A stretch of 64,000 nucleotides of DNA, from NCBI GenBank assembly GCA_030272585.1, contig BSYQ01000002.1, forward strand, positions 8,184,001 to 8,248,000, written 5' to 3'. A program made the translations under genes and the position numbers. Positions within the stretch are counted from its first letter, which is position 1; the number at the start of each line of letters is the position of its first letter. A model generated the notes under the pieces. It was given only the letters and a program-made list of their open reading frames with translations. It was not told the DNA's origin and made no database searches. Positions 5,509 to 64,000 of the stretch are shown here, one piece after another. Source of the stretch: Bryopsis sp. KO-2023. Its lineage: Eukaryota; Chlorophyta; Ulvophyceae; Bryopsidales; Bryopsidaceae.

Positions 5509-5593
5509 TGCACAAGGTGGGATTCGAACCCACGCGGAGACCAGCTCCATCAGGTCTGAAGTCTGACGCCTTGGACCACTCGGCCACTTTTGC
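5509..5593 (-). tRNA. tRNA-Leu-like gene with TCA anticodon
   Basis: Read on the minus strand this is a class II (long variable arm) tRNA of 85 nt: acceptor GCAAAAG/CTTGTGC, D-arm GCCGAGTGGTCCAAGGC, variable arm GGAG/CTCC stem, and a perfect T-arm GTGGG-TTCGAAT-CCCAC. The body is tRNA-Leu and closely matches the locus at 28497, which has anticodon TAA. Here the loop reads CTTCAGA, giving TCA, which pairs with UGA. Defects: A4-G69 mismatch in the acceptor and A31-C39 at the base of the anticodon loop. It is therefore either an opal-suppressor-type tRNA or a decaying tRNA-Leu. It heads a copy of repeat family C, which favours a repeat-associated relic. Confidence 0.65.
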
Positions 5594-10140: not shown

Positions 10141-10144
10141 ACTC

Positions 10145-11090
10145 TCTGATGCTAAACGCAACAACATGATCCCCCATCTGAAAACAAATCAAAGAATAAC
10201 AGGAGGGCTTTCTGGACAGTGTAGTTTTCACCCACCCATCTGCTAAAGTCTAGGAAAGAAAAAAAGAGAAAAGGAAAAAAGGAGTGCTAGTGGATGAGCC
10301 AGATGTCAAGAGCTTAGGTTCATTCTTCTGGATTGGGCTGTGGACAGGGGCCGTCACATCTGATCGGTTTTGCCGTTCTGGATGCCATTATTCAAAACAA
10401 GGTGAGTGAAAAACAGAATTCTGAAAAGGAAAAAAAGAAGCTTCGTTTATACATTGGGAAAGAAAATTGGAGAAATTTCTTGTGAGGGTACCTTTTCTTT
10501 TTTCTTCATTCACAATCCAGTTTTCTGGATATGTGATCCTTGCAAGGGATTTCACTTTTGCATGTTTCAGTTGGCCCCTTGAAAAAAAATAGGGATGACT
10601 AAAAGGACCTTTCAAAACAGAAATGTGCTCAAAATGCACGGATTCCCTGGAGTGTTTTGTGCCTAATGCAGCAGTGGGTTTGAATTAAAAGACACAAATG
10701 GACAATGATATTTTCTTGAATCCCCCCACATGTGTAACTCTTTTCTTTCTTCCCTATGTAGGTTGACATCTAGAAGAATGATTCTGCCAGCTCTCCCCTC
10801 CCGGGGTAAAAAAAGGGAAACAAGAAATAAAAGGAAGTGGCGGTGGTTGAATTTGTGGAGTCCAGAAACACCCAAGAATGTTAAGAAAGGATGGACCACC
10901 ATGCCAGCCCAAATGAAGCTTCAGAAAAATTGAGTTTGGAAGACTCCTCCTGCTGGGCATAGGGTTCAAATGCCAATGGCTGCTTTCCCCTTGTCAGAAA
11001 AAAAATGAGTCGAAAGGAACCTCAGCAGTGGATCAAAAATTGGGTCAGCAGAAGCAGATTTGATTTCTAGAAGAAAAACTTGTGGTTGGC
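10145..11090 (+). repeat. Dispersed repeat family A, copy 1
   Basis: Matches 16130-17440 and, over its distal part, 22150-22510; an inverted end piece lies near 34690-34840. Landmarks: GGGCTGTGGACAGGGG, GGATGGACCACCATGC and CTCCTCCTGCTGGGCA. No conserved open frame; class unknown. Confidence 0.7.
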
Positions 11091-15370: not shown

Positions 15371-16129
15371 TGGTAGACTTGGTGCTGTCGGATTGATCGA
15401 CGTTGATGATCCGACAAGTCGACAGAGGGTCGGGATCAAATTTCTCTGCAGTGGGTGGAAGAGTGACTGTGCAAATTTTCTTTCCTTTCAATTGACCCCC
15501 TGGTTTTGAGACTTTCCTTGGAGTGGGCCGAATGTGGTCGAGAAAAAACAAAGGTACATCGGCCTGGTGTCGGCTTATTTTTTTTCGAATGCGCATTGGG
15601 GGGTTCCGACTTCAGCCCCACATTTTTTTCTACTGACAGGACGTCGGTATTGCATTCGGCCACTCCATTGAGAGGCGATTGGGACGACGCCATCCAAGGG
15701 TTGCTGGATTCAGAGGGCGACTGTTTCCTGCAGACGTAGTCTGACAGCTCTGCGCCCCCTCAAGGCGCTCGTGGTGAAGCTTGTCAGCCTGTCGAAAATT
15801 TGATACACCTGGGGGGCGGAATTTTGCTTTCTTTCATGAAAAAGCAAGAACAAAACCTCTGTGAAATGGAAAAAAGTTGGTGTGGTCTGGATTTACCTGA
15901 CTAAATATCCCACCATAAATTATATTTCCCAAGAAATCAAGCATTGTGGAAGATCAACTTTTAAATTGAACATTTCAGTTTTCTCCTCATCTATTGTCTG
16001 AATCTGAATGTGCATGTGTATTTCCGATCAATGTCGATTTGATGGAGGTGGATTTGAATTTCGTTTTGAAAATGCTAAAAGCTAAGATGGTGAAAACCTG
16101 AAGGTGGTTTTCTGATTATTGACAAGGGG
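15371..16129. other. No recognisable gene
   Basis: Intergenic DNA. A piece around 15430-15600 is weakly shared with 31990-32200. No coding evidence. Confidence 0.45.
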
Positions 16130-17440
16130 GGTGGACTGCAGACAAACGAAAGCCGGAATCCACTGGACTCTCAAATTCAATGAGCAGCAACAAGAGCCCC
16201 GTATCAAAAGGACTGCAGGAATAACCGGAGGGCTTTATAGATCAGGTTAGTTTTCACCCACCCATCTGCTGGAAAAAAAAAAAAAGAAAACAAGAGGGAA
16301 GAAGGAAAAAGAGTGGCAGTGGATAATCCAGCCCTCTAAAGGGAGGGGTTCCTTTGATTTGGGGGAGAATAGGGACAAAGAAAAATTGGGGATAAGTATT
16401 GTCAATGACTCTTTTTTTTGGTGGGTCACTGACCCACAAAATATCAACAGCTGGTCCTGCATTAGAACTCTTTTGAAACACTCTTTTTCACTCAAAATTG
16501 ATTACGATTCTGCATTGGGCTGTGGACAGGGGTTGTCACATCGGATCGGGTTTTAGCTAATGTGGATACTTTCATTCAAAACAAGGTGAGGGGAAAAAGA
16601 GGTTTCAAAAGTGAAAAAAAAACTTTGTTTATATTTTGGGAAAGAAGCATGCATGGATTTCTTGTGGGGGTGCCTTTTTTTCACTTGAAATCCAGTTTTC
16701 TCTGAATTACTTTTCCCTGCAAGGGATTTCATTGTGCATGTTTCGGTTAGACCCTGAAACAAAAAAACAGGGATGACCAAAAGGAACCTTTCAAAACAAA
16801 AGGATAAGCCAAATCCATCAGAGTCGCTGGAGTGTTTTGTGCCTAGTTGCAGTCAGTTACACATTTGTCTTTTTCCAAATTTAATTAAAACACACACATG
16901 GACAATGATATTTTTTCTTGTCTCCCTCAAACCAAACCAAACCAAACCAAAATTACATGCGCAGAAGCCCGGGCCTCTATTGCAAGTATTGGCCTCTTTG
17001 AATGACAGTCATTGTTTGTAGAACCGGACTAGTGTAATAAAGCCTCTATTGCAAGTATCTCCCCCACATGTGTAACCCTTTCATTCATTCCCCATGTAGT
17101 CTGACATCCAGAAGGCTGATTCTGCCAGCTCCCCCCCCCCCCTGGTTAGAAAAAAGAAAAAGAAAAAACAAAGGAAGCGGCGGTGGGTGAATTGGTGGAC
17201 TCCGGAACACCTAAGAATGTTAAAAAAGGCTGGACCACCATGCACCTGCCAGCCCAAATGAAGCCGGAGAACAATGGAGTTGAAAAAACTTCTCCTGCTG
17301 GGCACGTGATAGGGGTAAAATGCCAATGGCTGGTTCCCCCTTCTTAGATAAGGGTTGAAAAGGGATCAGCAGGGGGTCAAAATTGGGACCTGCAAACTTG
17401 ATTTCTAGAAAAATATACTTTCGGTTTGCTGGCCCGATTT
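16130..17440 (+). repeat. Dispersed repeat family A, copy 2
   Basis: Longest copy of the family also present at 10145-11090 and 22150-22510. It runs directly into repeat B at about 17440. Small T-runs and a CAAAC microsatellite occur inside. No conserved frame. Confidence 0.7.
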
Positions 17441-18640
17441 TCAGGAGTCTGTTTAACATAGATCAACTAATATAGAAAAAAAGAATTCATCATGTGGCTT
17501 TCTCTCGTTCAGTTATGTGCACTTTGGTTCAGCCAGGGACCATGCTTTTCCAGCACCAATGATGCCTTTTTTTTCTTTTGACAGTTTGTGGTTGCTTTCC
17601 TTACAGGCAATTTCTTTGTGCATTTTTTTAAACTGCTAGATCATCTTTCACTAACACAGTGGTATGGAAAAAAGAGATACCGCATTTTTTGACGTATAGT
17701 TTGCATGTGTGTGGTGTTTTTTCTTCCTGGGAAGGGGGGAGGATCCTCCACTCAGTTTAATAATGATAATAATTCGATGAACTGTCTTGAACTGGGGGCA
17801 GATTTTCTCGGAAATGAGTGTTTTATCTTTAAAACAAGAATAGATGAGGTCCATAATGGACAAGGAAGCCTTGGATTTAAAAAAAAGGAGGAAAATTATA
17901 TTATCCTTGTCAGAAAAAAGGGGGTATTTTTCTGAAATAAAATAAAATCGTTCTGCTTATTTCAGTGGGTTCTTTTTTTTCGTTTTTGAATCTCTTTTTG
18001 TGGTGAACAGACTTTCTTCGGTTAACTTATTTTTAACAGAGCCCTCCAAAACCTTTTTGCATTTTTGGGGTTTGGTCTGTATTTTTTCGGGGATATTCTG
18101 ATGTTCTTAGTAAAGATTCTTATGATGGTGAGGGTCACCATGGTGGTTTTCCTAGATACTTCGTTACTTCCGTTAGGGGTGTGTTTGTGTGTGTCCAATG
18201 GTTTTTGTTTTTTGTTTTTTGTTTTTGTGTCCAATGTTGTTTTTTGTTTTTTTTACAGAAATTTCCATACAGACCCAAATTTTTTGTTTGTGTGTGTGTG
18301 CTGGGGGGGGGGAGAGTAAATCTGTGTCATCAGAAATCTATCGGCTGGGTTTTGTTGGGTAAACTTTTTCTGTTTGTGTTTGAACACAAAAAAAAAATTC
18401 TGGCAGCATGATGGGGTCTATTTGGGAGGCGTTTTTGAGAATGTTTTTCAGGTTCTGGTGAATGATAGGCAATTTTCAGACTGTAGTGTATTTTTCCTCT
18501 TACTCCCTTTCGAGATCTCAGCTGATTTTGTATTTCGAATCAGCTGCAAAATTTGGGTGAGGGAAAAAGAGTGAGATACTGATTGGTCAGTCAGAGGAAA
18601 GAGAAAACCTTGGTTGGTAGGAACTGAGGTGACCACCAAT
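17440..18640 (+). repeat. Dispersed repeat family B, copy 1
   Basis: Matches 33690-34700 in inverted orientation, and parts of 22510-22940 and 28690-29220. Landmarks: TGTTTAACATAGATCAACT, GTGAGGGTCACCATGGTGG and the GCAAAATTTGGG...GAGATACT end. Families A and B occur together in the same order in at least three places, so they may be one composite element. Confidence 0.7.
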
Positions 18641-21417: not shown

Positions 21418-22149
21418 TCATCCCTGTCAGTTCGAGAGTGAAGGTTCGAACCCGGGACCGGGTGGCCAGGGATCCTCTAGCAGATCCCCTTGACCAGCGG
21501 GCGAACGATGACATGCAGCGATGTCGCACTCAAGTACCCCCCCCTCCAAGGATGATTCACCCAACCGCCAGAAACTCGGTCGGCACTCCGACGTCTTCGA
21601 TGACGTCCCCGGTCCAAACCAGCTGTCAATCCGAATCGCTGTCCTCGCGATGCTCACGCGTGGTGGTGACCAAAGCCACCAAAGAGTCAGGTGAGTGAGA
21701 GTGCGGGTAGCTGTTGTGTGGGGGACGGAGGAACGCTTTCCTGTTCTGGAGAAGCTCGATCGAGTTCTCACGGTTTGGGTATGCAACCAAACGCACCAAC
21801 GGGTGCCATGGTTTTGGCGCGCCGCGTCTGAGCAGGTGTGGATTTCCCCTCGAAAGGGACGTCAGTCAGTCAGACTGTTGGGTGCAGCCAAAACCAGCTT
21901 TTCCAAGCTGGTTGGAAAAGTAGATGGGTGGTGATTGGGTGGTTTCTGGTTGGAGCTGGCTGGAACATATATACTGATTGGCTTACTCCAAGTATTTGCT
22001 TCTTCTTTCTTCGTTCAACTTCCCTCTAGACATTTTTTCTCTCAGCAGAGCTTCCCATTCTAAAAAAAGAAAAGAGCTTTTTTTCTCCTTTGAAACTCCC
22101 TCCCTCCCACTGACCACACTCATAACATCACCCAAGCTAGCCTAGCAAC
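21418..22149. other. No resolved gene; tRNA-like relic
   Basis: A minus-strand B-box (GGTTCGAACC at about 21445) with a D-like GCTGGTCAAGGGG suggests another tRNA relic around 21425-21500. The plus frame 21438-21698 ends at a good donor (AGTCAG|GTGAGT at about 21690), so it might be an exon, but no partner exon is convincing. Confidence 0.35.
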
Positions 22150-22940
22150 CCCTTTTCTTTTCTTTCTCCCCCATGTAGGATGACATCCAGAAGCCTGACC
22201 TCTCCCCCCCCCCTTGGAAATAAAAAAAGAAAAAAAACAATAAAAAAGGAAGGAAGCGGCGATGGTTGGATTGTTGGACTCCAGAAAACTCGAGGATGTT
22301 AAAAAGGATGGACCACCATGCACCTGCCAAGCCAAAAAAGACTGCAGAAACATAAAGTCAGGAAAACTCCTCCTGCTGGGCATAGGGTTAAAATGCCAAC
22401 AGCTCCCTTCCTAGATAAAGGTTGAAAAGGGATCAGCAGGGGATCAAAAATTGGGACCAGCAGCAGCAAACTTGATTTCTGGAAAAAATACTTGTGGTTG
22501 GCTGGCCCGATTTTCAGGAGTCTGTTTAACATAGATCAACTGATATAGAAAAAAAAAATACATCATGTGGCAATCTCTTGCGCAGGTATGTGCAATTTGG
22601 TTCAGCAAGGGAACAAGTTTTTCCAGCACCAATGACGCCCTTTTTCTTTAAACAATTTGTGGTCGCTTTCCTTACAGGAAATTTCTTTGCTGCAATTTTT
22701 TCAAATGCTAGACTATCTTTTACAAACACAGAGGTATGAAAAAAAGAGATACCGCATTTATTGCATTTCACTGTGGTGGTTTTCCTAGATACGGTACTTC
22801 ATTACATAGGGAAGTTAGGGTAGGGGGAGGGGAAAAGAGTGAGATACTTAGTGGGTCAGTCAGAGAAAAGAGAAAACCTTGAGCGGTAGGAACTGAGGTG
22901 ACCACGAATAAAGATCTAAGTGCTCTACGGTTTTCGTGGG
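22150..22940 (+). repeat. Dispersed repeats A and B, copy 3 (shortened)
   Basis: Joins the distal part of family A (22150-22510) to parts of family B (22510-22940), in the same order as at 16130-18640 but with most of B deleted. Confidence 0.7.
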
Positions 22941-23473
22941 ACGACTCCTATCGCCAGCCGGCGTTGTTTTTTCCTTCGAACAGTCAAGAGGGACTCGCGG
23001 CGTGAAATCTTCGTGAAGGTTTTCCCACTAGAGTTCCAGGGACGCCACTCCTTTGCGTTCCAAAAAAAAGGAAAGCCACATCTCGGATACGCCGCAGGAA
23101 CACAAGGGTCCCCTGCATTGGTTTTGCTTCTCGAAAGTGAGCGCGAGCGACTACGAGGTTCTTTTTTTTCTAGAATTTTGTCAGGGCAAGGGCAACTGAA
23201 AACGAAAAAGCGCTTTTTGAGTGGCGCCGCTTTTGTCTCTGACGTGTTGAGAGTGTATCGCACCCCAAGAATATCGATCGGTCGCCGCAACTCTTTCATA
23301 GGGCGGCCCTCCCTTTTCTGTGGCTTTTCTCTGCGTTTCCAGACAGGTGCTGTCCAGCAACCTGAAAGTGACGTAACGCACAGTTTTGAAAGGAAAAAAA
23401 TACCCTGTCCAGAACTTTTTCTCTTCCATTTTGGCGTGTGAAGCTCGTTTCGTTGGTTGGCTTGGCTCCAGGC

Positions 23474-27407: not shown

Positions 27408-27419
27408 CAAGTCTGTCAT

Positions 27420-27609
27420 GGGTGCACGATCACAGTGGCAGTGTAAGACCACGACCATGCCGTGCAGAGCAGATGCAAGCATCTGTTACCCCCGCATCCC
27501 ATGAAAAATCGGCTTAATCGTCAAAAGGGGTCGAATAGACCCCATACCAGCGATTAAACTGATAAGAACAGATACTACACTTGATCTTAGCCAAAAGGCC
27601 GAGAAAGGT
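27420..27609 (-). ncRNA. U2: U2 spliceosomal RNA, copy 1
   Basis: The minus strand starts ACCTTTCTCGGCC and contains the near-invariant U2 core: TTTTGGCTAAGATCAAGTG and the branch-point recognition element GTAGTA, then TTCTTATCAGTTTAA. An Sm-like GATTTTTCATGG follows a stem-loop, and 3' stem-loops end near GATCGTGCACCC. The length of 190 nt fits U2. U2 pairs with the intron branch site in the spliceosome, consistent with the GT-AG introns in this window. It is nearly identical to copy 2 (I found one difference, in the run after the Sm site). The conserved 5' flank may hold the snRNA promoter, but I could not pick a PSE with confidence. Confidence 0.95.
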
Positions 27610-27849
27610 ATGAAATTGAGGGGAAAGCCAACTGCATTGGTAGCAGGAAACTCCTGCCCTCCTCCGTTTTCGCTTTTTTTTTTAAAGCGCTTGAGAACGA
27701 TTGAGATGGGCCTTGCAAACGCCTGTTCCTATGCACGAGGTTCGGTGTTTCCAAGGACGTCTGGAGGGGGGTGTTCAGAACGCTGTTCAGTCTTAGGGCG
27801 TAATCATGATTTGATTTGTTCAGTCTTAGGGTGTGTTCTTTGGTAACGA

Positions 27850-52414: not shown

Positions 52415-52426
52415 GTAGTCTGTCAT

Positions 52427-52616
52427 GGGTGCACGATCACAGTGGCAGTGTAAGACCACGACCATGCCGTGCAGAGCAGATGCAAGCATCTGTTACCCCC
52501 GCACCCCATGAAAAATCGGCTTAATCGTCAAAAGGGGTCGAATAGACCCCATACCAGCGATTAAACTGATAAGAACAGATACTACACTTGATCTTAGCCA
52601 AAAGGCCGAGAAAGGT
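52427..52616 (-). ncRNA. U2: U2 spliceosomal RNA, copy 2
   Basis: 190 nt, almost identical to copy 1 at 27420, with the same branch-point recognition element GTAGTA, Sm-like site and 3' stem-loops. The single difference I see is C for T in the stretch following the Sm site (GGGGTGCGGG against GGGATGCGGG). Both copies look functional; the 5' flank is conserved for about 100 bp, as expected for a shared snRNA promoter. Confidence 0.95.
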
Positions 52617-53180
52617 ATAAAATTGAGAGGAAAGCCACCTGCATTGGTAGCAAGAAACTCCTGCCCTCCTCTGTTTTCGCTTTTTTGAAAAAAGCGCTTG
52701 AGAACGATTGAGTTGGGCCTTGCAAACGCCTGTTCCTTTGCACGAGGTTCGGTGTTTCCAAGGACGTCTGGGAGGGGGGTGTTCAGAACGCTGTTCAGTC
52801 TTAGGGTGTAATCATGATTTGATTTGTTCTGTCTTAGGGTGTGTTTCTTGGTAACGATACATCAGTTTGACGAGGTGTCCCACCACGCCATCTGGAAGCC
52901 GACCCAAACCGAGCATCGGATTGGGTGATCCTGGCAATTTTCATGACTTTGACACAACGTTCCACTCTGTGCACCTCGTCCTCCACCAAAAAGAATGTGC
53001 TGGAGTCTTACAGAACTGACATTTGGTTTTGTCGCGTGTGCATGAACTCCGACTCAACCTCTCTTAGTACTGAACACGTTTGTTTTTATTTCAACAGAAA
53101 CCCTCCAATAAGCGTATAGTTTTCCTCACTTTAATCATTTTTGGTTTTTGTTTGCTTGTTTTGGGGGCGCAGTCTTGCTG

Positions 53181-53485
53181 TTGATACCAGCTGCTGACGT
53201 CCAGGGACGTCAGACGTCAAAGGCGTCATGCATCTGACGTCTGTGAAGCGTCAGATGCATCCCCGGTAGATGACAGCATTCCCCTGAGGAGATACTACTG
53301 AACTACAGCGAGGAAACCACCGCAAGAGCACCTGGTCAAGACAGTGGTTCGATCAACTAAAGTGAGACTCGCGAGGTGGAGGTCTCGGGTTTGAATCTGA
53401 GTGGGAACGTGCTTTAGTCTGGGCTTGTGTGTGAGTGTGTGAGTGAGTCAGGAGTAGAACTGGCGGCTGTGAGTCAGGGTAGTGG
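53181..53485 (+). repeat. Chromovirus 5' LTR
   Basis: Starts TTGATACCAGCTGCTGACG and ends GGGTAGTGG. Contains three TGACGTC/GACGTCA (CRE-like) motifs and a 12-bp inverted repeat ATGCATCTGACG/CGTCAGATGCAT, plus a tRNA-like pair ACTAAAG/CTTTAGT. These are likely promoter elements (inference). Confidence 0.92.
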
Positions 53486-54117
53486 GAGTGTTACGGGTGG
53501 TTAGTCACCCTCGGGAAAGTCGAACGGGAGTTAAAAGAATGGGACGCTTGATGTAACCTTGCTTGTCAGTAATTCTGTGAGTGCAACTGTGGACCCCGTG
53601 TGCGACTCGATTCGATTTTGTGTGACCCTGTGGAACTCAGCCGCCACCCTCTCTCACTCTTTACACGGAAGTGCGTCGGCGTACGGAGCGCCTCGCGTAA
53701 CATTTTTTGGTTTCGGAGCTCGGACTCGAACTCTGGCGGCGAAAGTCAACTCAGGAAGCGTTAGTGCACTAAGCCACTGACGTGCAAGGTATATCGGCGG
53801 ACGGTTATACGCCTGGTCGCTAGTTATACACTGAGGGGACTTTTACTAGTTCTGTCGGAAAAACAAACACACCCGCGAAAAGGTTCGCACGAAAAAGAGG
53901 GTGTCCGACAGCAGTTTGTGTGGTACCCAGAAACAGACGACAGGAAAAAGGTTATCCTGTAACTGTCGTTGTGTGGCGGGGAGGCCACAAAACTGGTAGC
54001 TTAGTCGCTGGGAGTTTGTCGTTAAACGTTTGGACGTAAAGGCAGTGAGGGAAAAGTCAACAGTCTACTGTTGACAGTAACTGTCGGAAAGTCAACTGAA
54101 AGTCAGAGGCACACAGT
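53486..54117 (+). other. Chromovirus leader (5' untranslated region)
   Basis: 632 bp between the LTR and the Gag ATG, CpG-rich, no conserved frame. The primer-binding site should be at its start (GAGTGTTACGGG), but I could not match it to a tRNA. Confidence 0.7.
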
Positions 54118-56391
54118 ATGGCGTTAATACCAAGTGGATCAGGAAGCCAGATGGTGGCTTTTGAAGACTCCACTATGGACGAGTCTGCTATGCAGGTTGT
54201 TCACAACACGCAGAACATTCAGATAAACCGGACGGAGTCTGGTTCTGAAGGAGGAGGTCAGCTGCAAGCTCAGCTTGCAGTCTGGCGCGAAACAGTAGCA
54301 ACGGACTTGAAAAGTTCCTTCCAAACTGTTCATACAGACATGGAAAAAGCCATAGTGGCTGTCGACCAAAAGACGGAGCAAAATATTCAAGGTCTCCGTG
54401 AGTTCGTTCATCGAACTCAAGAAAGTCAGCAAAGGGTCGAAACTGAAGTCAACGACCTCCAGGTCGTTCTGCGACAGAATGTCGAGTCGACGACAGAAAA
54501 GCTAGCACAGCTTACAGACCATCTACAGTCAATGAAGCAGTCATTTGTGACTGATGTGCAAGAGCAACTGAGTACACATTATGCACAGTTGAGAGAAGAA
54601 ATCCTGGAAACAGGAAAATCTCATGCACAGAGTATTGCATATCTGAAAGATCAGATGCAACAGGAACAGGGGCTGTTCCAGCAATCTCATCAGACTGTAC
54701 AGAATAAGCAGATGCAAGACTTGTTTTCCGAACTGCAGACAATTAAGGGACAAGTGCAGAAGGAAGAACAAATGCATCAGGAACAAGGAATGTTCCAGCA
54801 AACTTATCAGAAACAAATGCAAGATTTGTATTCTGAATTGCAAGCAGTGAAAGGACAAGTCCAAAAAGAGGAACAAACAGCCCTTGTACTAGTGGAAAGA
54901 GAAAGAGAAGCTAGACAGAAAGAAGAGCTATCTCTTAAGCACACAATGGATAGAATGCTGAAGGAGTATGTACAGGCATCAGTTGTGCCTACACAACCAC
55001 TGGAAGTCCCAGTGTATATGATGCAAACAGTCACAGAAGGACTGAGTACAGAGGGACAAGAAGAACAGGAAATTCAACCTACTTCAGCAGCAGAGCTGGT
55101 GCTACCACCAGTTACTAATGGAGCACCTGCAACTGTGGGGTTACTACCACCCACTCCAGCAGTTCCATTACCCCCAGGACCTTCTTCTTTGGGTCTTATA
55201 GACCTAACCACAGGACAATCACTTCCAATGGGATCACCAATCCCCACATTGTCCATGTCACCAGCCACTGTAGTTCCACCAGCTACATTTACAGTGGGCA
55301 CTACCCCAGCACCATCAGGCATGGGAATCAGACCACCAAACCCCTTTGAGCAATTAACAAGTCAAAGAGCACCTAGTGGTGGTGCACCTGGAGGAAATCC
55401 AGGGGATCCAAATGGATCAAATGGCCCAAATGGACCAGACAGGCCAAACATGCCTAGAGCATCTGGATCTGGATTTCCAGGGCCAGGAAATGGTGGAGGT
55501 GGTGGTGGAGGTGGTGATGGAGGACCCCCAGGAGGAGGACCACCTGATAGAGATCCTAGTGGCACATCAGGAGGTTCAGGACAAGGTCCTGATAGACCTT
55601 ACAGCAAACAGATTAAGCTCACTCCCCCAGAGAAATTTACAGGAGATGAAAGGATATCTGCAACAGAATGGATACTAGGAATGAAGAGATGGTTGCAGAA
55701 TCAACACATCTTAGAGAGAGACTGGTTATCCTGTTTTCAGTCACATCTCCAGGGAGATGCACTTAGCTGGTTAAACCTGATGGATATACAGATCATGAAT
55801 CAGGAAAAAGCAGAGTATGCTAGCTGGCAAGAGTTCACTCAAGAACTAAGGAATGTTTTTGAGCCAGTCTCCCTAATAGAGACTGCCAGAAAACAGTTAA
55901 GAACTCTAAGGCAGACTGGAACTGCCTTAGGCTACATCAGGCTCTTCAGAAAGCTGATGTTTAGACTCCCCAACCTACCTCAAGAAGAAAGATATGCAGC
56001 TTTTGTGGATGGGCTCTCAGATAGAAATATGCAAGCACAGGTTATGACCCTGTGTGATGGGGATCTGGATAAGGCCATCCTCACAGTTCAAAGACTCTCT
56101 GCAACTATAGGCAGTAGAGGTGGCACTACTAGCAGCTTTAGAGGCAGAGGTAGAGGGAGGGGAAGATTTGGACAAAGGAATATACAGATGTCAGCAGTGA
56201 TAGCTGCTGCAACACCACAACTACCTCTTGCAGCAAACTCAGTTAAAGCTGTGCAACAGAGAGGTCAGATGGGATCTAGACCCTCAAGGGGAGGATCCTT
56301 TAAGTGTTTTCTATGTGGAAGCACAGAGCATGGGGTGAGACAGTGTCCCAAACTGTCCCAAGCTCAGAAAGCCCTGAAGAAGGGAAACTAA
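54118..56391 (+). CDS. gag: Chromovirus Gag
   Basis: 757 residues from ATG 54118 to TAA 56389-56391. The N-terminal third is coiled coil with a tandem internal duplication (MQDLFSELQTIKGQVQKEEQ and MQDLYSELQAVKGQVQKEEQ). A Pro/Gly-rich linker follows, then the capsid region (PPEKFTGDERISATEWIL and LYSWLN-like turns), an Arg/Gly-rich patch and a single zinc knuckle CFLCGSTEHGVRQC that packages RNA. The frame ends four bases after a slippery GGGAAAC. The first about 375 nt contain CpG, the rest almost none. Forms the particle in which reverse transcription occurs. Confidence 0.93.
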   Translation: MALIPSGSGSQMVAFEDSTMDESAMQVVHNTQNIQINRTESGSEGGGQLQAQLAVWRETVATDLKSSFQTVHTDMEKAIVAVDQKTEQNIQGLREFVHRTQESQQRVETEVNDLQVVLRQNVESTTEKLAQLTDHLQSMKQSFVTDVQEQLSTHYAQLREEILETGKSHAQSIAYLKDQMQQEQGLFQQSHQTVQNKQMQDLFSELQTIKGQVQKEEQMHQEQGMFQQTYQKQMQDLYSELQAVKGQVQKEEQTALVLVEREREARQKEELSLKHTMDRMLKEYVQASVVPTQPLEVPVYMMQTVTEGLSTEGQEEQEIQPTSAAELVLPPVTNGAPATVGLLPPTPAVPLPPGPSSLGLIDLTTGQSLPMGSPIPTLSMSPATVVPPATFTVGTTPAPSGMGIRPPNPFEQLTSQRAPSGGAPGGNPGDPNGSNGPNGPDRPNMPRASGSGFPGPGNGGGGGGGGDGGPPGGGPPDRDPSGTSGGSGQGPDRPYSKQIKLTPPEKFTGDERISATEWILGMKRWLQNQHILERDWLSCFQSHLQGDALSWLNLMDIQIMNQEKAEYASWQEFTQELRNVFEPVSLIETARKQLRTLRQTGTALGYIRLFRKLMFRLPNLPQEERYAAFVDGLSDRNMQAQVMTLCDGDLDKAILTVQRLSATIGSRGGTTSSFRGRGRGRGRFGQRNIQMSAVIAAATPQLPLAANSVKAVQQRGQMGSRPSRGGSFKCFLCGSTEHGVRQCPKLSQAQKALKKGN

Positions 56392-56426
56392 AAGAGGAGG
56401 CTAGTGTTGGGTCAGCTAAGCCTCCT
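56382..56426 (+). promoter_or_regulatory. -1 ribosomal frameshift signal between Gag and Pol
   Basis: Slippery heptamer G GGA AAC (56382-56388) sits in the Gag frame directly before the TAA stop. After a 6-nt spacer, AGGAGGCT (56395-56402) pairs perfectly with AGCCTCCT (56419-56426) around a 16-nt loop. Slipping one base back continues as CTA AAA GAG into Pol. This is the standard three-part architecture. Confidence 0.9.
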
Positions 56427-59400
56427 GATGATATTGAAATTAAAGAACCCACTACAAAAACACCAGCCTCACTAAATAATGGTGTTCAAGAGACACCTGT
56501 GGTTGCAGCCCCTATTGCAACAGAACAGGAAGCAAACACACTGGATGGGGTCACTCCAGAAGTGTTAATTCAAAAGAAAAAGCAGTCTCAAAAGAGAGTG
56601 GATAAACAAACAGAGGCCACTGTGAGTTTACCCACTAGAGTGGAAGGAAATGTTGAGGGAAAGGAACCAGTTCAAACTGCAGTAGCTCAGGCTACAGCAG
56701 CATATAGAGGATATGAACTGGCAGGATTTATTGGTGCAAAGAAAGCTACAGCATACATTGATACAGGATCCACTGCTAATTATATTAGCATGGATGCAGT
56801 CAAGGAACTGGGACTGCAATACAAACCACAAGAAACTCCTGTTAAGTTTCTAGATGGTACAGAAAGGAAATCAGTGGGGAGATGTTTTGGCATCCCATTT
56901 GTCTGTGGAAAGATTCAGCTTTCATTTGATGCTGATGTCTTTCCAGACAGTAATCACCCAATCCTGCTGGGATTGCCCTGGCTCATACACTACAATCCCA
57001 AAGTGGATTTTAAGTCAGGAATAATCACAGTAAACAAGGGCAGAAAGAGTGTAAAATTACCACTCTCAGTGATGCCTGAATATCAACTCAAGCCCACTGG
57101 AGCTACAGAACTTTCCTTTTGTTCTAGTGGCAGAATCAAAAGACAGATAGAAAAAGGGGAAATCAAACACATCATCATGGTGGTGATTAGGCCAGAGGAT
57201 GAATCAAAGACTGGAGTAGAAACAATCCCAGAACAAAGGGAAGGGGATGATCTACAGAAAATCCTGCAGGAGGATATGGATCCCAAGATTAAGGAAGTAC
57301 TGACTCAGTACAGAAAAGTATTTGCAAAAGATTTGCCTAAAGGTGTACCTCCTACCAGGCTGGGTCATGAATTCAGGATTGATCTGGAGGAGGGTACTGA
57401 ACCCATGTACAGGCCACTGTATAAACTGTCTCCTCTTGAGTTAGATGAGGTTAAAAGACAGTTAGATTACCTTTTGGAGATGGATTTCATTGAACCATCA
57501 CAATCACCATTTGGGGCACCTATTCTGTTTGTCCCTAAGAAAGATGGAGGGCTCAGAATGTGCTTAGATTACAGATGGCTGAATAAAAAAACAATTAAAA
57601 ACAGATACCCTCTGCCCTTACCAGAGGAGATGATTGACAGGGTGCATGGGGCAAAATACTTCACAAAGATAGACTTGAGATCAGGCTACTGGCAGATGCC
57701 TCTAAGGGAAGAGGACAGGCCTAAGACTGCCTTCAGGAGCAGATTTGGACACTACCAGTTCAAAGTACTCTCCTTTGGACTTACTAATGCTCCAGCACAA
57801 TACATGAACATGGTTAATGATATCTTCAAGGATATGCTGGATATCTTTGTGCTGATCTTCATTGATGATCTCTTAATCTATTCTAAGAGCATCTCTGAGC
57901 ATGTAGAGCATCTAGCAGCAGTCTTAGCCAGGCTACAGAAGTATAGTCTATTTGCAAAGGCCACTAAAAGTGAAATCTGTGTGAGGGAAACAGATTTCTG
58001 TGGATTTTGGTTGAGTGAAAAAGGGATCTCAGCAATGGATGTGAAGGTTAAGGCAATCAGGGATTGGAAGCCCTTAAAAACAGTTACTGATGTCAGGAGT
58101 TTTCTGGGGATGGTATCCTTCTATAGAAGATTTATTCCTGATTTTGCAAAGATAGCAGGCCCCCTGCATGACTTAACTAAGAAGGATGTCATGTGGGAGT
58201 GGGGATCTGCTCAGGAAATAGCCTTCCAAACACTGAAAACTGCATTGATGGGGAAACCAGTGCTGATCCATCCTAATCCAGTAAAGGATTACACTGTGAT
58301 TAGTGATGCATCTGGGAAAGCAACTGGAGGAGTTCTCTGTCAGGATCATGGCTCTGGATTACAGCCCATAGCCTTTTGCAGTAGAAGATTATCAAAATCA
58401 GAACAAAATTACTCAGTGTATGAAAGGGAACTCCTGGGAATAGCCTACTGCTTGATGCAGTGGAGGCACTACTTAGAAGGCTGCCCAGGAGAAGTCACAG
58501 TCTTTACAGACCACCAGCCACTAACAAATTTTATGGATCAAAAGATGATGTCAAGACCCCAAGCCAGGTGGCTCAGGGCAGGACATTTCCTCAGCATCAA
58601 ACCAAAAATTCAGTACATCCAAGGGAAACTGAATCTGGTTGCTGATGCACTATCAAGAAGCTTACCAGCAGAGAATCAAGTGAATGTAGTGAGCTCCTTA
58701 CAACCTAGTGTGGAGGAGATTACACTCTGGGAGCAAGCAACACTGGCAGATGTTGAAATCAAAGACATCTACAATCAAATACTGGATGGGGAAAGAATTC
58801 CAGGATATGGAATCAATGAATCAGGGTTGTTGATTTATCAAACTCAGGATGGACTTATGAAATTATGGGTTCCTCAGGAACTGAGAATGAAAGTCCTTAC
58901 TGAAGGACATGATAATCAGATCTCTGGACATCTGGGGATAGAGAGAACTCTGGAGCTGATGTCCAGGAAATACTACTGGAATAATATGAAAAAGGATGTC
59001 CAGGAATATGTTAGGACATGTGAGGTTTGCCAGCAAATGAAACCTGAGTTGAGGGCTCAGAAGGGATTGCTGCAACCTATTCCAGTAGCTGATAAGAAAT
59101 GGAGTCAGATCACTACTGATTTAGTGACTGATTTACCCCCTGTTGATGGATTTGATTCCATTGCAGTATTTGTTGATAGATTGACTAAGATGGTGAAGTT
59201 CATACCCTGCAGCAAAACAATAGATGCACCAGGGTATGCAAGAATATTCTTTGATCACATCTTTAGGAATCATGGGATTCCCAGTGTGATAATCAGTGAT
59301 AGGGACACTAGATTTACAAGCAAATTTTGGCAGGAGTTAATGAAGTGTGTGGGCACTAAAGTGAGGATGTCCACAGCCTTCCATCCTCAAACTGATGGAC

Positions 59401-60173
59401 AGAGTGAAGTCAGTATCAGAACCTTAGAGAATTTCCTCAGACCCTATGTTGAGGATCATCCAGAGACATGGATGCAAGGCTTGGGGATGGCTGAATTTGC
59501 ATCCAACAATGCTGTACACACTGCTACAGGGTACAGTCCCTTTTACTTGATGTATGGAGTGCATCCCCAGTTACCAGGGGATCTACTGGCTGGAAAAGCT
59601 CAAGCAGAAGCAGAGTCAGTACAAGAGATGATATCTCATATGCAGGAAGTCATCAATGATGCCAAAGACAGATATAAAACAGCCCAAGAGAAGATGAGGC
59701 AGCAAGCAAATAAAAGGAGAAGAGATGTACAGTTTCAAGTGGGAGAAAAGGTGTTGCTCTCCACAAAGACATTGAATTTATCAGTCTTGAAACATATTCC
59801 AGTGAAAATCAGAAGAAGGTATATAGGGCCTTTTGTTATTGCTGCTGCAGTGGGATCTGTGGCATATAGATTGGTGTTACCAGATGGATGGAAATTACAT
59901 CCTGTATTTCATGTATCAAAGTTAAGAAAACTTCAAGAAAGTGCTAAGTTTCCTAGGGAGGTAATGGCACCTCCAGCAGAATTAGATTCTGAGGGAGAAG
60001 AGGAATTTGAAGTTGAGGCTGTAGTAAGACATAAATTTTCAGGAAGGAAAAGAAGATTTTTAGTAGTCTGGAAGGGGTATCCACTTAGTGAAGCAACATG
60101 GGAACCCCAAGACAATTTATTGAATGCATCAGAGATCCTGGCTGATTATAAGAGGAGAGCTGGGATCAGGTAG
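56388..60173 (+). CDS. pol: Chromovirus Pol (protease, RT, RNase H, integrase, chromodomain)
   Basis: Expressed after the -1 shift; an ATG upstream at 56313 is in frame but inside Gag. Order: aspartic protease (AYIDTGSTANYI at about 56750), reverse transcriptase (RMCLDYRWLNKKTIKNRYPL, LSFGLTNAPAQY, FIDDLLIYSK at about 57860), RNase H (VISDASGKATGGVL, VYERELLGIAYCL, FTDHQPL), integrase zinc finger (HDNQISGHLG...CEVCQ), DDE core (TTDLVTDLPP, VIISDRDTRFTSKFW, FHPQTDGQSEVS) and a C-terminal chromodomain (RRFLVVWKGYPLSEATWEPQ). The chromodomain probably steers insertion to marked chromatin. The frame is intact. All arginine codons I checked are AGA/AGG, in line with the missing CpG. Confidence 0.95.
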   Translation, partial: LKEEASVGSAKPPDDIEIKEPTTKTPASLNNGVQETPVVAAPIATEQEANTLDGVTPEVLIQKKKQSQKRVDKQTEATVSLPTRVEGNVEGKEPVQTAVAQATAAYRGYELAGFIGAKKATAYIDTGSTANYISMDAVKELGLQYKPQETPVKFLDGTERKSVGRCFGIPFVCGKIQLSFDADVFPDSNHPILLGLPWLIHYNPKVDFKSGIITVNKGRKSVKLPLSVMPEYQLKPTGATELSFCSSGRIKRQIEKGEIKHIIMVVIRPEDESKTGVETIPEQREGDDLQKILQEDMDPKIKEVLTQYRKVFAKDLPKGVPPTRLGHEFRIDLEEGTEPMYRPLYKLSPLELDEVKRQLDYLLEMDFIEPSQSPFGAPILFVPKKDGGLRMCLDYRWLNKKTIKNRYPLPLPEEMIDRVHGAKYFTKIDLRSGYWQMPLREEDRPKTAFRSRFGHYQFKVLSFGLTNAPAQYMNMVNDIFKDMLDIFVLIFIDDLLIYSKSISEHVEHLAAVLARLQKYSLFAKATKSEICVRETDFCGFWLSEKGISAMDVKVKAIRDWKPLKTVTDVRSFLGMVSFYRRFIPDFAKIAGPLHDLTKKDVMWEWGSAQEIAFQTLKTALMGKPVLIHPNPVKDYTVISDASGKATGGVLCQDHGSGLQPIAFCSRRLSKSEQNYSVYERELLGIAYCLMQWRHYLEGCPGEVTVFTDHQPLTNFMDQKMMSRPQARWLRAGHFLSIKPKIQYIQGKLNLVADALSRSLPAENQVNVVSSLQPSVEEITLWEQATLADVEIKDIYNQILDGERIPGYGINESGLLIYQTQDGLMKLWVPQELRMKVLTEGHDNQISGHLGIERTLELMSRKYYWNNMKKDVQEYVRTCEVCQQMKPELRAQKGLLQPIPVADKKWSQITTDLVTDLPPVDGFDSIAVFVDRLTKMVKFIPCSKTIDAPGYARIFFDHIFRNHGIPSVIISDRDTRFTSKFWQELMKCVGTKVRMSTAFHPQTDGQSEVSIRTLENFLRPYVEDHPETWMQGLGMAEFASNNAVHTATGYSPFYLMYGVHPQLPGDLLAGKAQAEAESVQEMISHMQEVINDAKDRYKTAQEKMRQQANKRRRDVQFQVGEKVLLSTKTLNLSVLKHIPVKIRRRYIGPFVIAAAVGSVAYRLVLPDGWKLHPVFHVSKLRKLQESAKFPREVMAPPAELDSEGEEEFEVEAVVRHKFSGRKRRFLVVWKGYPLSEATWEPQDNLLNASEILADYKRRAGIR

Positions 60174-60415
60174 AAGTTAGATGCACTTTTGATTCTGTGG
60201 CTGAAGGATCAGGAATCCCAGTGACTAGGGGATGGGTTGCATAAGGGCAGTGAAGTGTTTTCTGAACTTCTGTGGGTTAAGGATTTTATGGGGATCTAAT
60301 TATCCTTTCAGAAGTGCAGGGAGCTTGGGATTTGCATCACCCTAGTTCAGAGTTACTTTTACAGAATCAGAAGGATGCATTTGATGGATACTTGGTGAGG
60401 GCACCAACTGCCCCC

Positions 60416-60425
60416 AGGGGGGAGG
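60416..60425 (+). promoter_or_regulatory. Polypurine tract
   Basis: AGGGGGGAGG three bases before the 3' LTR: the primer for plus-strand DNA synthesis. Confidence 0.75.
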
Positions 60426-60428
60426 CAA

Positions 60429-60733
60429 TTGATACCAGCTGCTGACGTCCAGGGACGTCAGACGTCAAAGGCGTCATGCATCTGACGTCTGTGAAGCGTC
60501 AGATGCATCCCCGGTAGATGACAGCATTCCCCTGAGGAGATACTACTGAACTACAGCGAGGAAACCACCGCAAGAGCACCTGGTCAAGACAGTGGTTCGA
60601 TCAACTAAAGTGAGACTCGCGAGGTGGAGGTCTCGGGTTTGAATCTGAGTGGGAACGTGCTTTAGTCTGGGCTTGTGTGTGAGTGTGTGAGTGAGTCAGG
60701 AGTAGAACTGGCGGCTGTGAGTCAGGGTAGTGG
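60429..60733 (+). repeat. Chromovirus 3' LTR
   Basis: Same length as the 5' LTR, with no difference seen. The next base starts TGTCATCGCTCCA, which recurs at 60890-60902. Confidence 0.92.
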
Positions 60734-60946
60734 TGTCATCGCTCCATATTTTGACGTTACATGAACGCATAACAAACAACCGTACAAACTGCCAAGAATA
60801 GAGAATTGTTTAATACCGCTGTTGATCTATCTCTCCGTCCGAGAACTTCCTAATCATTCTTGGACACCAAAGGATTTGTCGACCACAATTGTCATCGCTC
60901 CACTTCGCTTCCACTAGCAAATCTCCGAAAATAAAAAAACTTCCCG
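60734..60946. other. Tail of the integrase module
   Basis: Contains the 13-bp direct repeat TGTCATCGCTCCA at 60734 and 60890. Read on the minus strand the module would end in TGGAGCGATGACA, i.e. a TG...CA-type terminus. Confidence 0.4.
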
Positions 60947-62233
60947 CTATTCCGATATTTTTTGTAAATCCTCCAAACCCATGCGTCGTTTTTCTCTTCC
61001 CAACACAATCGTTGCTAATCTCCATTCACTATCTATTTCATGAATTTTCCATACCGTTTTCGAGGCTAATGGATCTAAACTCTTCCTTCTCAACAAACGA
61101 AATCGAACAAAATCCCCCACTACAAAATCAAAATTGCTCGAGCGAGAATGTTTTTTTTCAAAAGCCCTTTGTCTTTTTGCCTGGACTAATGATATTTGCC
61201 TCTTTGCTTCACTCCAAAGATCCTCTAAAGGTAATTCACTTCTTTGTAAGTAAAACTCCCCACTTACTGCAATCATAGCCTTCATTCCATAAGCCAATTC
61301 ATAGGGGGAAAGTCCTGTGGTAGTGTGAGGAGCACAATTATGACTCACCACAATTCTCCCTAAAACTTTTGGCCATTGCTTGCTGATATGATTCCTCTCA
61401 AGAAGAACACATCTAATCCTTTTCTTAACATCCCCAATTGTAGCTTCAACATTACCATTGCTTTGCGGATGCAATGGTCTACTGTGGACATGCCTAATGC
61501 CTTGTTCCACCAACAATATTGAAAATCCACCATCGAATTCCCCACCATTGTCGGATCTAATATATTGAGGTTTTGGATATTTCCCCAAAATCTCCTGTTG
61601 AAACCATGTTCTAACCGTCTCTGAAGTTTTATCTGGTATTATAGTAACCACAAGAAACTTTGAAAAAAGATCCAATGCCACAGCAATATATTTATACCCA
61701 CATTCACTAATTGGTAATTGGGCTAAATCCACAGCCCACCCAACAAAAGGTTGGTCTGGACCCTTGTCCTGAATAAGGCTTTTTGGGGTATTCCATTTAG
61801 ACCTATTGCAACTGCAAGCTTCGCATTCGTTCAAAACCTCTTTCACTGACCCAGTCAAATCTGACCAATAATATCTCTGCCTAAGAAACCGAAGGCATTT
61901 GTCCCTGAGGTGCCCCAGACCAAGGTGCACATTTTTAACGAGTGACACTCTTGTTTCTGGCCTTGGCACAATTCTTGAAAGAAAGCCTTTATCTTTTTTC
62001 CACAAAATCGGACCTCGAAATTCGTAAGTCTTTTTCTTAGCAAGGATTCTATTCCTTTCCGCATGCGAACCACTTAACCTTTCACCATATTGCAAGTATC
62101 TAAGACTTGCCGCGTCTTTCCATATATCGTACACCATTTTTTTATCCAAACAAAAGAACCACTCTTGTTCCAACACGATAGAAGGTAGAGAATAAAACCC
62201 CGCAATATAAGCATATGAGACCCTCGAATCAAA
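60947..62233 (-). CDS. Retroviral-type integrase (Ty3/Ginger-like), stand-alone
   Basis: The minus frame is open from 62233 to TAA near 60947; the GTG at 62176 is arbitrary and the first ATG is at about 62137. By the numbering from 62176: zinc finger H84-x4-H89-x28-C118-x2-C121 (HLGLGH and CEAC), then the catalytic triad D150 (GWAVDLAQLP), D209 (IRSDNGGEF) and E244 (NGNVEATIG), spaced D-x34-E, and a basic C-terminal domain with VGDFVRF. This enzyme would cut and join DNA ends. Neither protease, reverse transcriptase nor RNase H precedes it; the upstream gene is instead the SH3 protein, 10-70 nt away in the +1 frame. That fits a Ginger-type DNA transposon or a retroelement with RT deleted. Confidence 0.8.
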   Translation of the reverse strand, partial: FDSRVSYAYIAGFYSLPSIVLEQEWFFCLDKKMVYDIWKDAASLRYLQYGERLSGSHAERNRILAKKKTYEFRGPILWKKDKGFLSRIVPRPETRVSLVKNVHLGLGHLRDKCLRFLRQRYYWSDLTGSVKEVLNECEACSCNRSKWNTPKSLIQDKGPDQPFVGWAVDLAQLPISECGYKYIAVALDLFSKFLVVTIIPDKTSETVRTWFQQEILGKYPKPQYIRSDNGGEFDGGFSILLVEQGIRHVHSRPLHPQSNGNVEATIGDVKKRIRCVLLERNHISKQWPKVLGRIVVSHNCAPHTTTGLSPYELAYGMKAMIAVSGEFYLQRSELPLEDLWSEAKRQISLVQAKRQRAFEKKHSRSSNFDFVVGDFVRFRLLRRKSLDPLASKTVWKIHEIDSEWRLATIVLGREKRRMGLEDLQKISE

Positions 62234-62243
62234 TCACTTTTCA

Positions 62244-63620
62244 TTAAGATCTAAAAGGAAATCTTGTGCGAAAAAAAGAATCGTGCAAATTCCAATTAAA
62301 ATGCCGGTAATAGGGCCACCAGTAAAATTCTGGCCAAGGAGATTGCATCCAAGAAATCAATGGCAATCTACCCTGTACGTGTCCTGGAATTTGCCAGTCA
62401 GGAAATTTCTGACCATCTCTAAAATGTGTAGGAGAACAGCTTACATTTCTTTGTCGATTTCTTTGTCGTCTCCTGTTTCTCCTCCTCACTCTTGATTCAA
62501 ATTGATCAGTTCGCATCATTTGCTCGTTCTCCTTTTTCTTGCAATCAGATTCCATCCCGCTTTTTGATCCTTGGCTTGGTAATTTCTCCTTTTGTACAAA
62601 TGCATCTCTTGGATGTTCTTCTTTGGGTTTCAGATGCTCTTCAATAACATCTGAAGACAACTTGAAAGGTCTTCTGCTTCTTTTCCAGCCACCATCCGAA
62701 TGTGCGTCCCGTGCTCGCTTCAATTCCATATCCAAGTTTTTTAAAGAATCAGCCCTCAATCTGAGAAGCTCTTTCTCTAAAGCTTGAATTTTTTCCACAT
62801 CTTTTTCCCACAATCTGAAAATCTTCTCAAGGTTTTCGCCCCTATTTTCCACAATCTTCATGCTTTGTTGTACATCTGAGAAAAAAAACCTTTTCTTTTC
62901 CTGATCGGCCTTTATTTGACAATGCCATTGTACAGGAGAAAAATTCACCATTACCGGTTGCCTATCATATCTCCCTTTCCTACTTTCACACTGAAAATTC
63001 ATTGGATGATGTCTTTGGATGATTTTAGGGATTTCAAGAATCGAAGAGCACAACAAATTGCAATCCCTAATCTCATATTTTTGATCTCTCATTTCTCCTT
63101 CCGTTTGACATCCAATAGAAAACTGGACATCATTCAAAAAAGAATCATCCACTGATTCCATGTAAGAAAAAGGTATCAAACCTTCTACACCACTTTGTAA
63201 TTTCACCAAAACTTGCCCATTATTTTTCTCCTCCACAACTCGTACAATCTCTCCTTTTCCCACAGAAATCTCCCCGGAAAAGCCACCAGAAAACTCAGTT
63301 AAAATTCTGCCATATTCAATTTTGTGTGAGAAAACAACTGGATCAGAACTACAAAGATTCTGATGCAATTTTTCAGGTTTAGAAAAGCTTCCTTGAAAAA
63401 CCTGAGGTGGGGATGCCATAACCTTTTTTTTCTCCTCAATTTTCTGAAGATAGGACGAAGGAATCAAACCAATTTTATCATCCCTTTTGGATTGTACTGA
63501 AGTCCAACCCTGATCACACTCTTCCAAGATGATAACAATCTCATTTTTCTGAACTGAAAGCTCCTCTGCAAATTCTGCCCCAAAGTCGTGCAAAACTCTT
63601 CCGTGTTCTTTTTTCTCCAT
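62244..63620 (-). CDS. Double-SH3 protein of the integrase module
   Basis: 458 residues from ATG 63620 to TAA 62246-62244. Two SH3 domains: residues about 6-60 (GRVLHDFGAEFAEELSV, QGWTSVQSKRD, GLIPSSYLQKI) and about 103-160 (GRILTEFSGGFSGEISVGKG, GLIPFSYMESV). Each has the ALYDF-like, ELSF-like, W/Q and PSNY-like blocks, though the ALYDF and Trp positions are partly changed. A helical stretch follows (about 250-310, EKIFRLWEKDVEKIQALEKE) and then a strongly basic Arg-rich segment (RRRNRRRQRNRQRN). SH3 domains bind Pro-rich peptides; with the basic tail it could bridge nucleic acid and a host protein. Same strand and immediately upstream of the integrase, so probably co-expressed. Function unknown. 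Confidence 0.75.
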   Translation of the reverse strand: MEKKEHGRVLHDFGAEFAEELSVQKNEIVIILEECDQGWTSVQSKRDDKIGLIPSSYLQKIEEKKKVMASPPQVFQGSFSKPEKLHQNLCSSDPVVFSHKIEYGRILTEFSGGFSGEISVGKGEIVRVVEEKNNGQVLVKLQSGVEGLIPFSYMESVDDSFLNDVQFSIGCQTEGEMRDQKYEIRDCNLLCSSILEIPKIIQRHHPMNFQCESRKGRYDRQPVMVNFSPVQWHCQIKADQEKKRFFFSDVQQSMKIVENRGENLEKIFRLWEKDVEKIQALEKELLRLRADSLKNLDMELKRARDAHSDGGWKRSRRPFKLSSDVIEEHLKPKEEHPRDAFVQKEKLPSQGSKSGMESDCKKKENEQMMRTDQFESRVRRRNRRRQRNRQRNVSCSPTHFRDGQKFPDWQIPGHVQGRLPLISWMQSPWPEFYWWPYYRHFNWNLHDSFFRTRFPFRS

Positions 63621-64000
63621 TGTTTTATATTCCCAGAATTTTGTTTAACTTTGTTTTTTATATATAAAATTTTGTCCACAGACCCGTTTTCCTAAAACTA
63701 TCAATTTTTAGAAAAGAAAGGGAAACACCTGAAGATTTCTTTTAGAACCCAGAAGTTCTCCAATATCTTTCACTGTGTTTTTTTTTTTAAACTTCCGCAC
63801 AACCTAAAATAGAAAGACTCAACCTTTCGAAGAAAAGGGAGTTCACACAAGGAAAAAAACCAACCCAAACCAGAAACTTAGAGCTCAAGAAAATTTTGCA
63901 GCTCTACAAAATAAAAACACCACCCAGAAAAAACAAAATCAAGAAAAAATCTCAATTCTGCCAAGGGAAAATAAAGACCTATACAAAAATTTCCAGAAGT
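63621..64000. other. AT-rich 5' flank of the SH3 gene
   Basis: Very A/T-rich, no gene. If the module has a second terminus it lies here or beyond the window; I see no inverted copy of TGTCATCGCTCC. Confidence 0.5.

Follow-up and report, generated by a model that had tools for sequence, protein, structure and literature searches.

A Bryopsis chromovirus with a nearly CpG-free body and a CpG-normal promoter end

Transposons are usually viewed as passive targets of CpG methylation that shed their CpG in dying: copies of methylated transposable elements die while decaying, and TG and CA accumulate in them. Fungal RIP acts on repeats generally, can erase a dinucleotide, and breaks codons. To our knowledge, no chromovirus with a CpG-free body plus a CpG-normal promoter end is known. 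For CpG-suppressed lentiviruses, HIV-1 included, observed/expected CpG ratios (O/E) of 0.2–0.4 are given in the accessible part of PMC7158733, according to which the position of a CpG also matters. Among the matches listed in the literature searched (open titles and abstract openings), no retrotransposon with a CpG-free body was reported. Here, an LTR retrotransposon in a 64,000-nucleotide stretch (the window) of the genome of Bryopsis sp. KO-2023, a siphonous green alga, was analysed, following an earlier note made from the sequence alone, and was compared with its genomic copies, with other LTR families and with host loci. An HSP70 exon of the genome agrees at 100% with that strain.

Structure and CpG content of the element

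The element is an LTR chromovirus (Ty3/Gypsy), ordinary in its parts and assigned by domains and layout; the features given below lie on the plus strand, except for the target-site duplication, for which no strand was given. This duplication, GCTGT, was identified from the window and L068 sequence, with its left copy at 53177..53181 and, by sequence, its right copy directly after the displaced 3' LTR end (G000:C2:8248794). The 5' LTR (53182..53702; TGATACC...TAACA) was defined as a repeat with the 3' LTR, and its 217-bp remainder recurs alone elsewhere. An LTR length of 305 bp, as put forward earlier, had to be corrected to 521 bp, the 3' LTR being cut at 60734 by a nested insertion: its first 304 bp (60430..60733) are identical to the 5' LTR, and the missing 217 bp were found at G000:C2:8248578–8248794, beyond the window edge. 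By motif count, U3 of the 5' LTR carries GACGTC/ACGTCA motifs, which we take to be bZIP/CRE-like, with four GACGTC and two GCGTCA within 60 bp. Within the leader (53703..54117) lies the primer-binding site (53708..53731), the reverse complement of which, GTTCGAGTCCGAGCTCCGAAACCA, appears to read like a tRNA 3' end with CCA.

The gag frame (54118..56391, 757 aa) contains Retrotrans_gag at aa 540–634 and a zinc knuckle recognised by eye. It shares 88 nt with pol (56304..60173, 1,289 aa), which is read in a different frame and encodes protease, RT, RNase H, integrase and chromodomain. Pfam matches in pol were RVT_1 (410–569), RNase H (633–757), Integrase_H2C2 (856–914) and Chromo (1235–1285), along with an rve match (936–1028) at 25.4 bits, under its cut-off of 32.6. 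The domain order is that of a chromovirus (RT, RNase H, integrase, then a C-terminal chromodomain), and the LTR length, the tRNA-like primer site and the 5-bp GCTGT duplication are Ty3/Gypsy LTR hallmarks. The 3' untranslated tail (60174..60429) holds no CpG in 255 bp and, close to its end, a purine-rich run that is likely the polypurine tract.

Several further observations were made in and around the window. The nested insertion (3,844 bp, window 60734–64000 and on to G000:C2:8248577) carries identical direct repeats of 142 bp close to each of its ends. An integrase ORF lies on its minus strand, and an ORF upstream contains two SH3 domains; neither of its two long ORFs has a reverse transcriptase. 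Speculatively, an LTR-type element may here have captured an SH3 gene. The U2 snRNA is duplicated at window 27417–27611 and 52424–52618, within 90% identical segments; SRP-RNA matches lie at window 2363, 5704 and 28088, and a selenocysteine tRNA gene at 5509–5593. At G000:C2:5.6–8.6 Mb, many HSP70 pieces form a cluster, several of them with stops.

The earlier note had described an internal region nearly free of CpG, with a single CG at about 54729, between CpG-rich ends, and counting bore this out on both points. The CpG-free body (54493..60429, 5,937 bp) has one CpG, at 54729, against 279.3 expected from base composition (O/E 0.004); at 54730–60445 there is none against 269.7 expected. The 5' LTR has 33 CpG (O/E 0.90), the leader 26 (1.07), gag codons 1–125 have 20 (0.90) and the 3' LTR part 15 (0.72), and the window upstream of 54493 stands at 0.81. 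The 3' edge of the CpG-free body is the LTR start at 60430. The frames are intact, as had been noted, and past the border Arg is encoded by AGA/AGG in 106 of 106 codons (35 in gag from codon 126, 71 in pol), while none of 481 Ser/Pro/Thr/Ala codons is of the NCG type. At codon junctions, one C|G was observed against about 81 by synonymous permutation (means 23.1 and 58.4, minima 12 and 40, 1,000 permutations each). CpG is therefore near zero in the coding and non-coding body, by every route of making CpG. CAG (222) and CTG (130) are frequent in the body, where the excesses of TG and CA are similar (23 and 25); the 3' tail tilts to CA (17, O/E 1.65, vs TG 23, O/E 1.04).

Family copies, variation and other LTR families

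With a 1-kb RT query, 40 scored matches among 354 candidates were obtained, and a 35-base body segment gave 75 exact genome matches. Thirty RT-region copies were taken, of which 21 full-length ones were analysed and nine truncated or interrupted ones set aside. The examination of other genomic copies, which had been proposed as a check, agreed with the window's copy: the 21 copies carry 0–4 CpG each in 4 kb at pairwise divergences of up to 5.5%, with 14 CpG in the whole alignment and none in 11 copies; one extra CpG, in L032, was produced by a 1-base deletion. In the nine set-aside copies, the 28,054 bases that match the body contain 2 CpG, and the remaining CpG of these copies lie in inserted or flanking DNA. 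All copies examined thus had a body with no CpG or almost none. No DNA relatives outside the Bryopsis genome were found in genome_contigs or viral_contigs. Two pol proteins that are 52–55% identical to that of the element (P0003 and P0018) are filed under bacterial MAGs (Parasphingorhabdus, Marinobacter nauticus) and may come from algal contigs misbinned from the Bryopsis culture, of which one study reportedly describes MAGs.

The full-length copies form subfamily A (11 copies including the window's, at most 1.8% apart) and group B (10 copies, about 94–97% identical to A). The group B copy L076 follows the same pattern: its LTR part and leader are related to the window's and CpG-normal (59 CpG in 851 bp), but its CpG end at gag nt 51, vs 374 in the window's copy, with two strays later; subfamily A has one stray CpG at gag nt 612. 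The 5' segment of another group B copy, L075, gave no match upstream to the window element. The border, which had been called abrupt, was indeed abrupt rather than graded, but it has no fixed place: in the window's copy it falls at gag codon 126, in L076 at about codon 17.

Variation among the copies was then counted at positions with an invariant neighbour. T/C variation occurred in 0 of 255 columns before G vs 128 of 1,211 before other bases, and A/G variation in 5 of 275 columns after C vs 184 of 1,682 after other bases. On the tree, with all sites included, T>C changes numbered 1 in 315 before G and 93 in 634 elsewhere, and A>G changes 10 in 344 after C and 166 in 963 elsewhere; five of the 11 changes before G or after C were double changes creating no CpG. 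Synonymous CpG-creating transitions in pol were absent from the tree, against about 110 expected from the rates at other synonymous sites (26.7 + 24.2 + 27.5 + 31.3; 54 on inner and 56 on terminal branches). An ancestor-free count on a real copy agreed with this, with variable sites at 1/133 and 0/113 vs 46/217 and 59/237. Thus, synonymous CpG-creating transitions do not persist, whereas other synonymous changes do. In the 35-base pattern, allowing CpG at five synonymous sites added 0 matches and five matched non-CpG changes added 5, a comparison that is weak alone.

The ratio of synonymous to non-synonymous changes in pol was 286:60 on inner branches, where neutrality predicts 163:421, so that these branches reflect active life. 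This strong purifying selection, together with the missing synonymous transitions, supports the earlier proposal that the absence of CpG was upheld while the lineage was active. A relic of a one-time purge was rejected as an explanation, since CpG hardly return (none in the 255 T/C columns before G, none of the expected synonymous transitions). On the tree, 11 CpG gains and no CpG losses were counted. Eight gains lie in pol, four of them non-synonymous and four synonymous transversions, so that gains by transversion look less suppressed than those by transition, in small numbers. L024, a decayed copy with two stops, has 4 CpG and carries 4 of the 11 gains, which points, again in small numbers, to gains that arise after insertion and then stay, rather than to fast decay. 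Two CpG-bearing variants recur among the copies (L013/L020 and L036–L038); a single CpG is therefore not fatal, and its cost at most modest. Double changes between TG and CA were considered as a test of mutation against selection and discarded as useless, since they need a non-synonymous step.

Ten RT loci of the Bryopsis genome were used for comparison between families. Five of them (L001, L077, L080, L082 and L083) had a CpG O/E of 0.57–0.83 and represent four families, L080 and L082 being one. A chromodomain, called as a match in an equal-length frame downstream of RT, was present in three of the four (L077, L080/L082 and L083, O/E 0.73–0.83); for L001 there was none among the matches listed (150 of 1,097 candidates). 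With three chromodomain families CpG-normal, neither the host nor the chromodomain explains the CpG-free body, and targeting of chromodomain elements to methylated heterochromatin was rejected as its cause. The remaining loci, L078, L079, L081 and L084 (44–49% pol identity) and L003 (40%), make up three families by DNA identity, with an O/E of 0.20–0.31. Within this ten-locus sample, depletion is confined to one clade, of which the focal family is the extreme; the end formed by LTR, leader and early gag is exempt, and the sampled other LTR families are less affected or unaffected. In the sister chromoviruses (L078, L079, L081, L084 and L003) CpG are clustered at an RT block (pol aa ~400–520), many of them at shared positions, with few on either side; in the gag of the element at L081, 13 CpG within 165 bp come after a stretch that has none.

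The earlier note had also asked for a comparison with host genes and Ngaro, and these are not depleted to the same degree: an HSP70 exon has an O/E of 0.83, two DNA-methyltransferase loci 0.54–0.76 and Ngaro-like ORFs 1.01. Old repeats that are 77–81% alike (window 10001–11000, 16001–18000 and 22001–23000) have an O/E of 0.18–0.45, and their CpG vary 3.7–6.1 times as much as other C/G; some host repeats seem to undergo CpG decay of the ordinary kind.

Selection, mutation and other accounts

We give about even probability to the reading that selection at the level of the element continues to act against CpG in the transcribed body of the chromovirus; that host CG methylation is the agent is a weaker proposition. 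It is likely that variants gaining body CpG were out-competed, rather than that CpG mutated away. As regards the agent, a DNMT1-like gene lies at C1:4.266–4.268 Mb and a DNMT2-like gene at C10:4.248 Mb (PF00145 and motif reading), and SRA domains were found at about seven places in the genome by profile search. Since DNMT1-like and SRA-domain genes are present, the earlier suggestion that the host methylates and that the promoter end is protected fits, and the likeliest agent would be body CpG serving as a foothold for putative host CG methylation, through a DNMT1-like enzyme and SRA readers, possibly coupled to H3K9 methylation. A CpG-free body would offer no substrate for CG methylation, so that silencing would be neither laid down nor spread there. 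The promoter end could stay CpG-normal if it is kept unmethylated around the start site, and its U3 would need ACGTCA-type sites; with many competing copies, a small cost per CpG might be enough.

Put at its strongest, this would make the element a methylation-stealth retrotransposon, in which selection among copies removed, and keeps removing, the substrate of CG methylation from the body while a CpG-normal promoter module is exempt; we hold this tentatively, judging it to be somewhat short of an even chance. Methylation normally acts on CpG density, so that it would be surprising for single CpG to weigh heavily enough to leave almost none; nor is the partial, blockwise depletion in the sister clade predicted by the selection model. 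If the methylation-stealth reading is true, the element offers natural evidence, in a green alga, of a base-by-base fitness cost from intragenic CG methylation or from another CpG sensor. Beside CpG-normal families, a multiplying family keeps CpG at about zero through some force against single synonymous changes. Whether transposons are limited by methylation of body CpG or by another CpG sensor can thus be tested on a natural system with built-in controls (leader vs body, focal clade vs others).

The main question is whether mutation could do the same. Body- and family-targeted CpG hypermutation, through methylation guided by small RNAs or through a RIP-like process, fast enough to erase every new CpG while purifying selection preserves the frames, is in our judgement a serious yet unlikely account. 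Modelling of the terminal branches, in which k is the CpG decay rate relative to normal, left 4.9 CpG at k = 200 and 2.3 at k = 500 with decay on both strands, and 9.0 and 4.0 with silent reversion only, where 0 were seen; mutation alone would thus need a k of at least 200–500, in line with the earlier view that this is not simple decay of methylated CpG. In the leader of 18 copies, by contrast, 4 of 126 CpG positions were variable vs 10 of 375 non-CpG positions (column list by eye), a k of about 1.2 and no elevated CpG transition rate. A modest CpG excess does exist in the window's 13 duplicate pairs, some of them overlapping (94/468 CpG vs 321/2,695 other C/G, ratio 1.7, pairs 0.75–6.1), and speaks for hypermutation; pairs of the L001 family (99.3–100% identity) had 0 or 1 variable CpG position of 29–190, with no clear excess. 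Likewise, the TG+CA excess corresponds to 38–66% of the lost CpG in the sister loci, as hypermutation would have it, and to just 18% in the focal element, against a background that scatters widely. The rarity of changes between TG and CA (five on the tree) does not count against hypermutation, given the non-synonymous step. Deamination scars were not in excess in pol: one Arg was lost to Gln, His, Cys or Trp, a number matched or exceeded in 30 of 70 relatives (out of 106 of suitable length). Conserved Arg were kept at 23 of 32 positions, where others average 25.5 of 30.6. Speaking against the selection reading, Arg is somewhat low in pol, at 5.5% vs 7.0 ± 0.9% in relatives, and Lys high, at 7.8 vs 6.4 ± 1.2%. 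As to hypermutation, new CpG persist in the decayed L024, and the tree has no CpG loss. A RIP-like process would be expected to hit all long repeats, and the other multi-copy LTR families keep an O/E of 0.57–0.83. Ordinary methylated-CpG decay of a chromodomain element in methylated heterochromatin, which could reach the O/E of 0.20–0.31 of the relatives at 44–49% pol identity with a several-fold CpG rate, is already largely refuted for the focal family and is left with very little probability: the three other chromodomain families are CpG-normal, and a near-zero O/E with 0 of ~110 gains needs rates far above the published range, which the accessible part of PMC12994199 gives as 5- to 20-fold in vertebrates and 1.5–4.5 in plants. 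A deaminase coupled to reverse transcription, with a gradient of single-strand exposure, was rejected on the abrupt border and the like excesses of TG and CA in the body; an APOBEC_N profile search gave 0 matches, but its control gave none either.

Selection could also act on the RNA, through a ZAP-like host CpG sensor or an RNA-processing constraint, from which the 5' leader would escape through its position or its structure. The suppressed CpG of lentiviruses and the position-dependent effects described for them (PMC7158733, accessible part) lend this some plausibility, and TpA, too, is mildly low in the window element (0.68); yet leader and early gag, expected in the same RNA, have an O/E of 0.90–1.07, other LTR families and a host gene are CpG-normal, and we consider it improbable. 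We know of no ZAP-like CpG RNA sensor in algae. Recombination with a CpG-free donor, the CpG-rich 5' module being an unpurged newcomer, was suggested by the similarity of subfamily A to L076, which is about 95% in the body, 16–60% (per 25 aa) over gag aa 1–350 and 72–97% in LTR and leader. The gag divergence (window 54118–55166) may reflect fast diversification or exchange of an N-terminal module. A recombination junction was, however, rejected as the CpG border, which lies at codon 126 or 17, away from the similarity border at about codon 350; both divergent gag modules are almost CpG-free past their own border, and the LTR and leader of A and L076 have 28 CpG in common in place, so that recombination seems to us a very remote explanation. 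Lastly, methylated CpG might have been misread in repeats beyond the reach of short-read polishing, the element being a high-copy repeat in what is presumably a long-read assembly. Misreading would have left broken CGN codons rather than AGA/AGG throughout and would hardly have spared the conserved Arg, and CpG were called normally in the LTR and leader of the family copies; an artefact of assembly or base-calling is thus barely credible.

Comparison with known systems

The element stands apart from each of the described systems in a different respect. Fungal RIP differs in that other Bryopsis repeat families retain CpG. With the decay of methylated transposable elements, the element has the CpG target in common, and Bryopsis has CG-methylation genes; unlike decaying copies, it keeps its frames and most of its Arg, and its state is stationary. 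The lentiviruses resemble it as CpG-poor retroelement genomes maintained in active replication (PMC7158733, accessible part). They differ in their O/E, which at 0.2–0.4 is at least 50 times the 0.004 of the Bryopsis element, and in their agent, which is partly an RNA-binding protein; the Bryopsis element is without known infection. The closest likeness in build is to the Ty3/Gypsy chromoviruses, with which it shares the LTR, the tRNA-type primer site, gag, a pol with protease, RT, RNase H, integrase and chromodomain, and the 5-bp duplication, and from which it differs in having a CpG-free body together with a CpG-normal promoter end.
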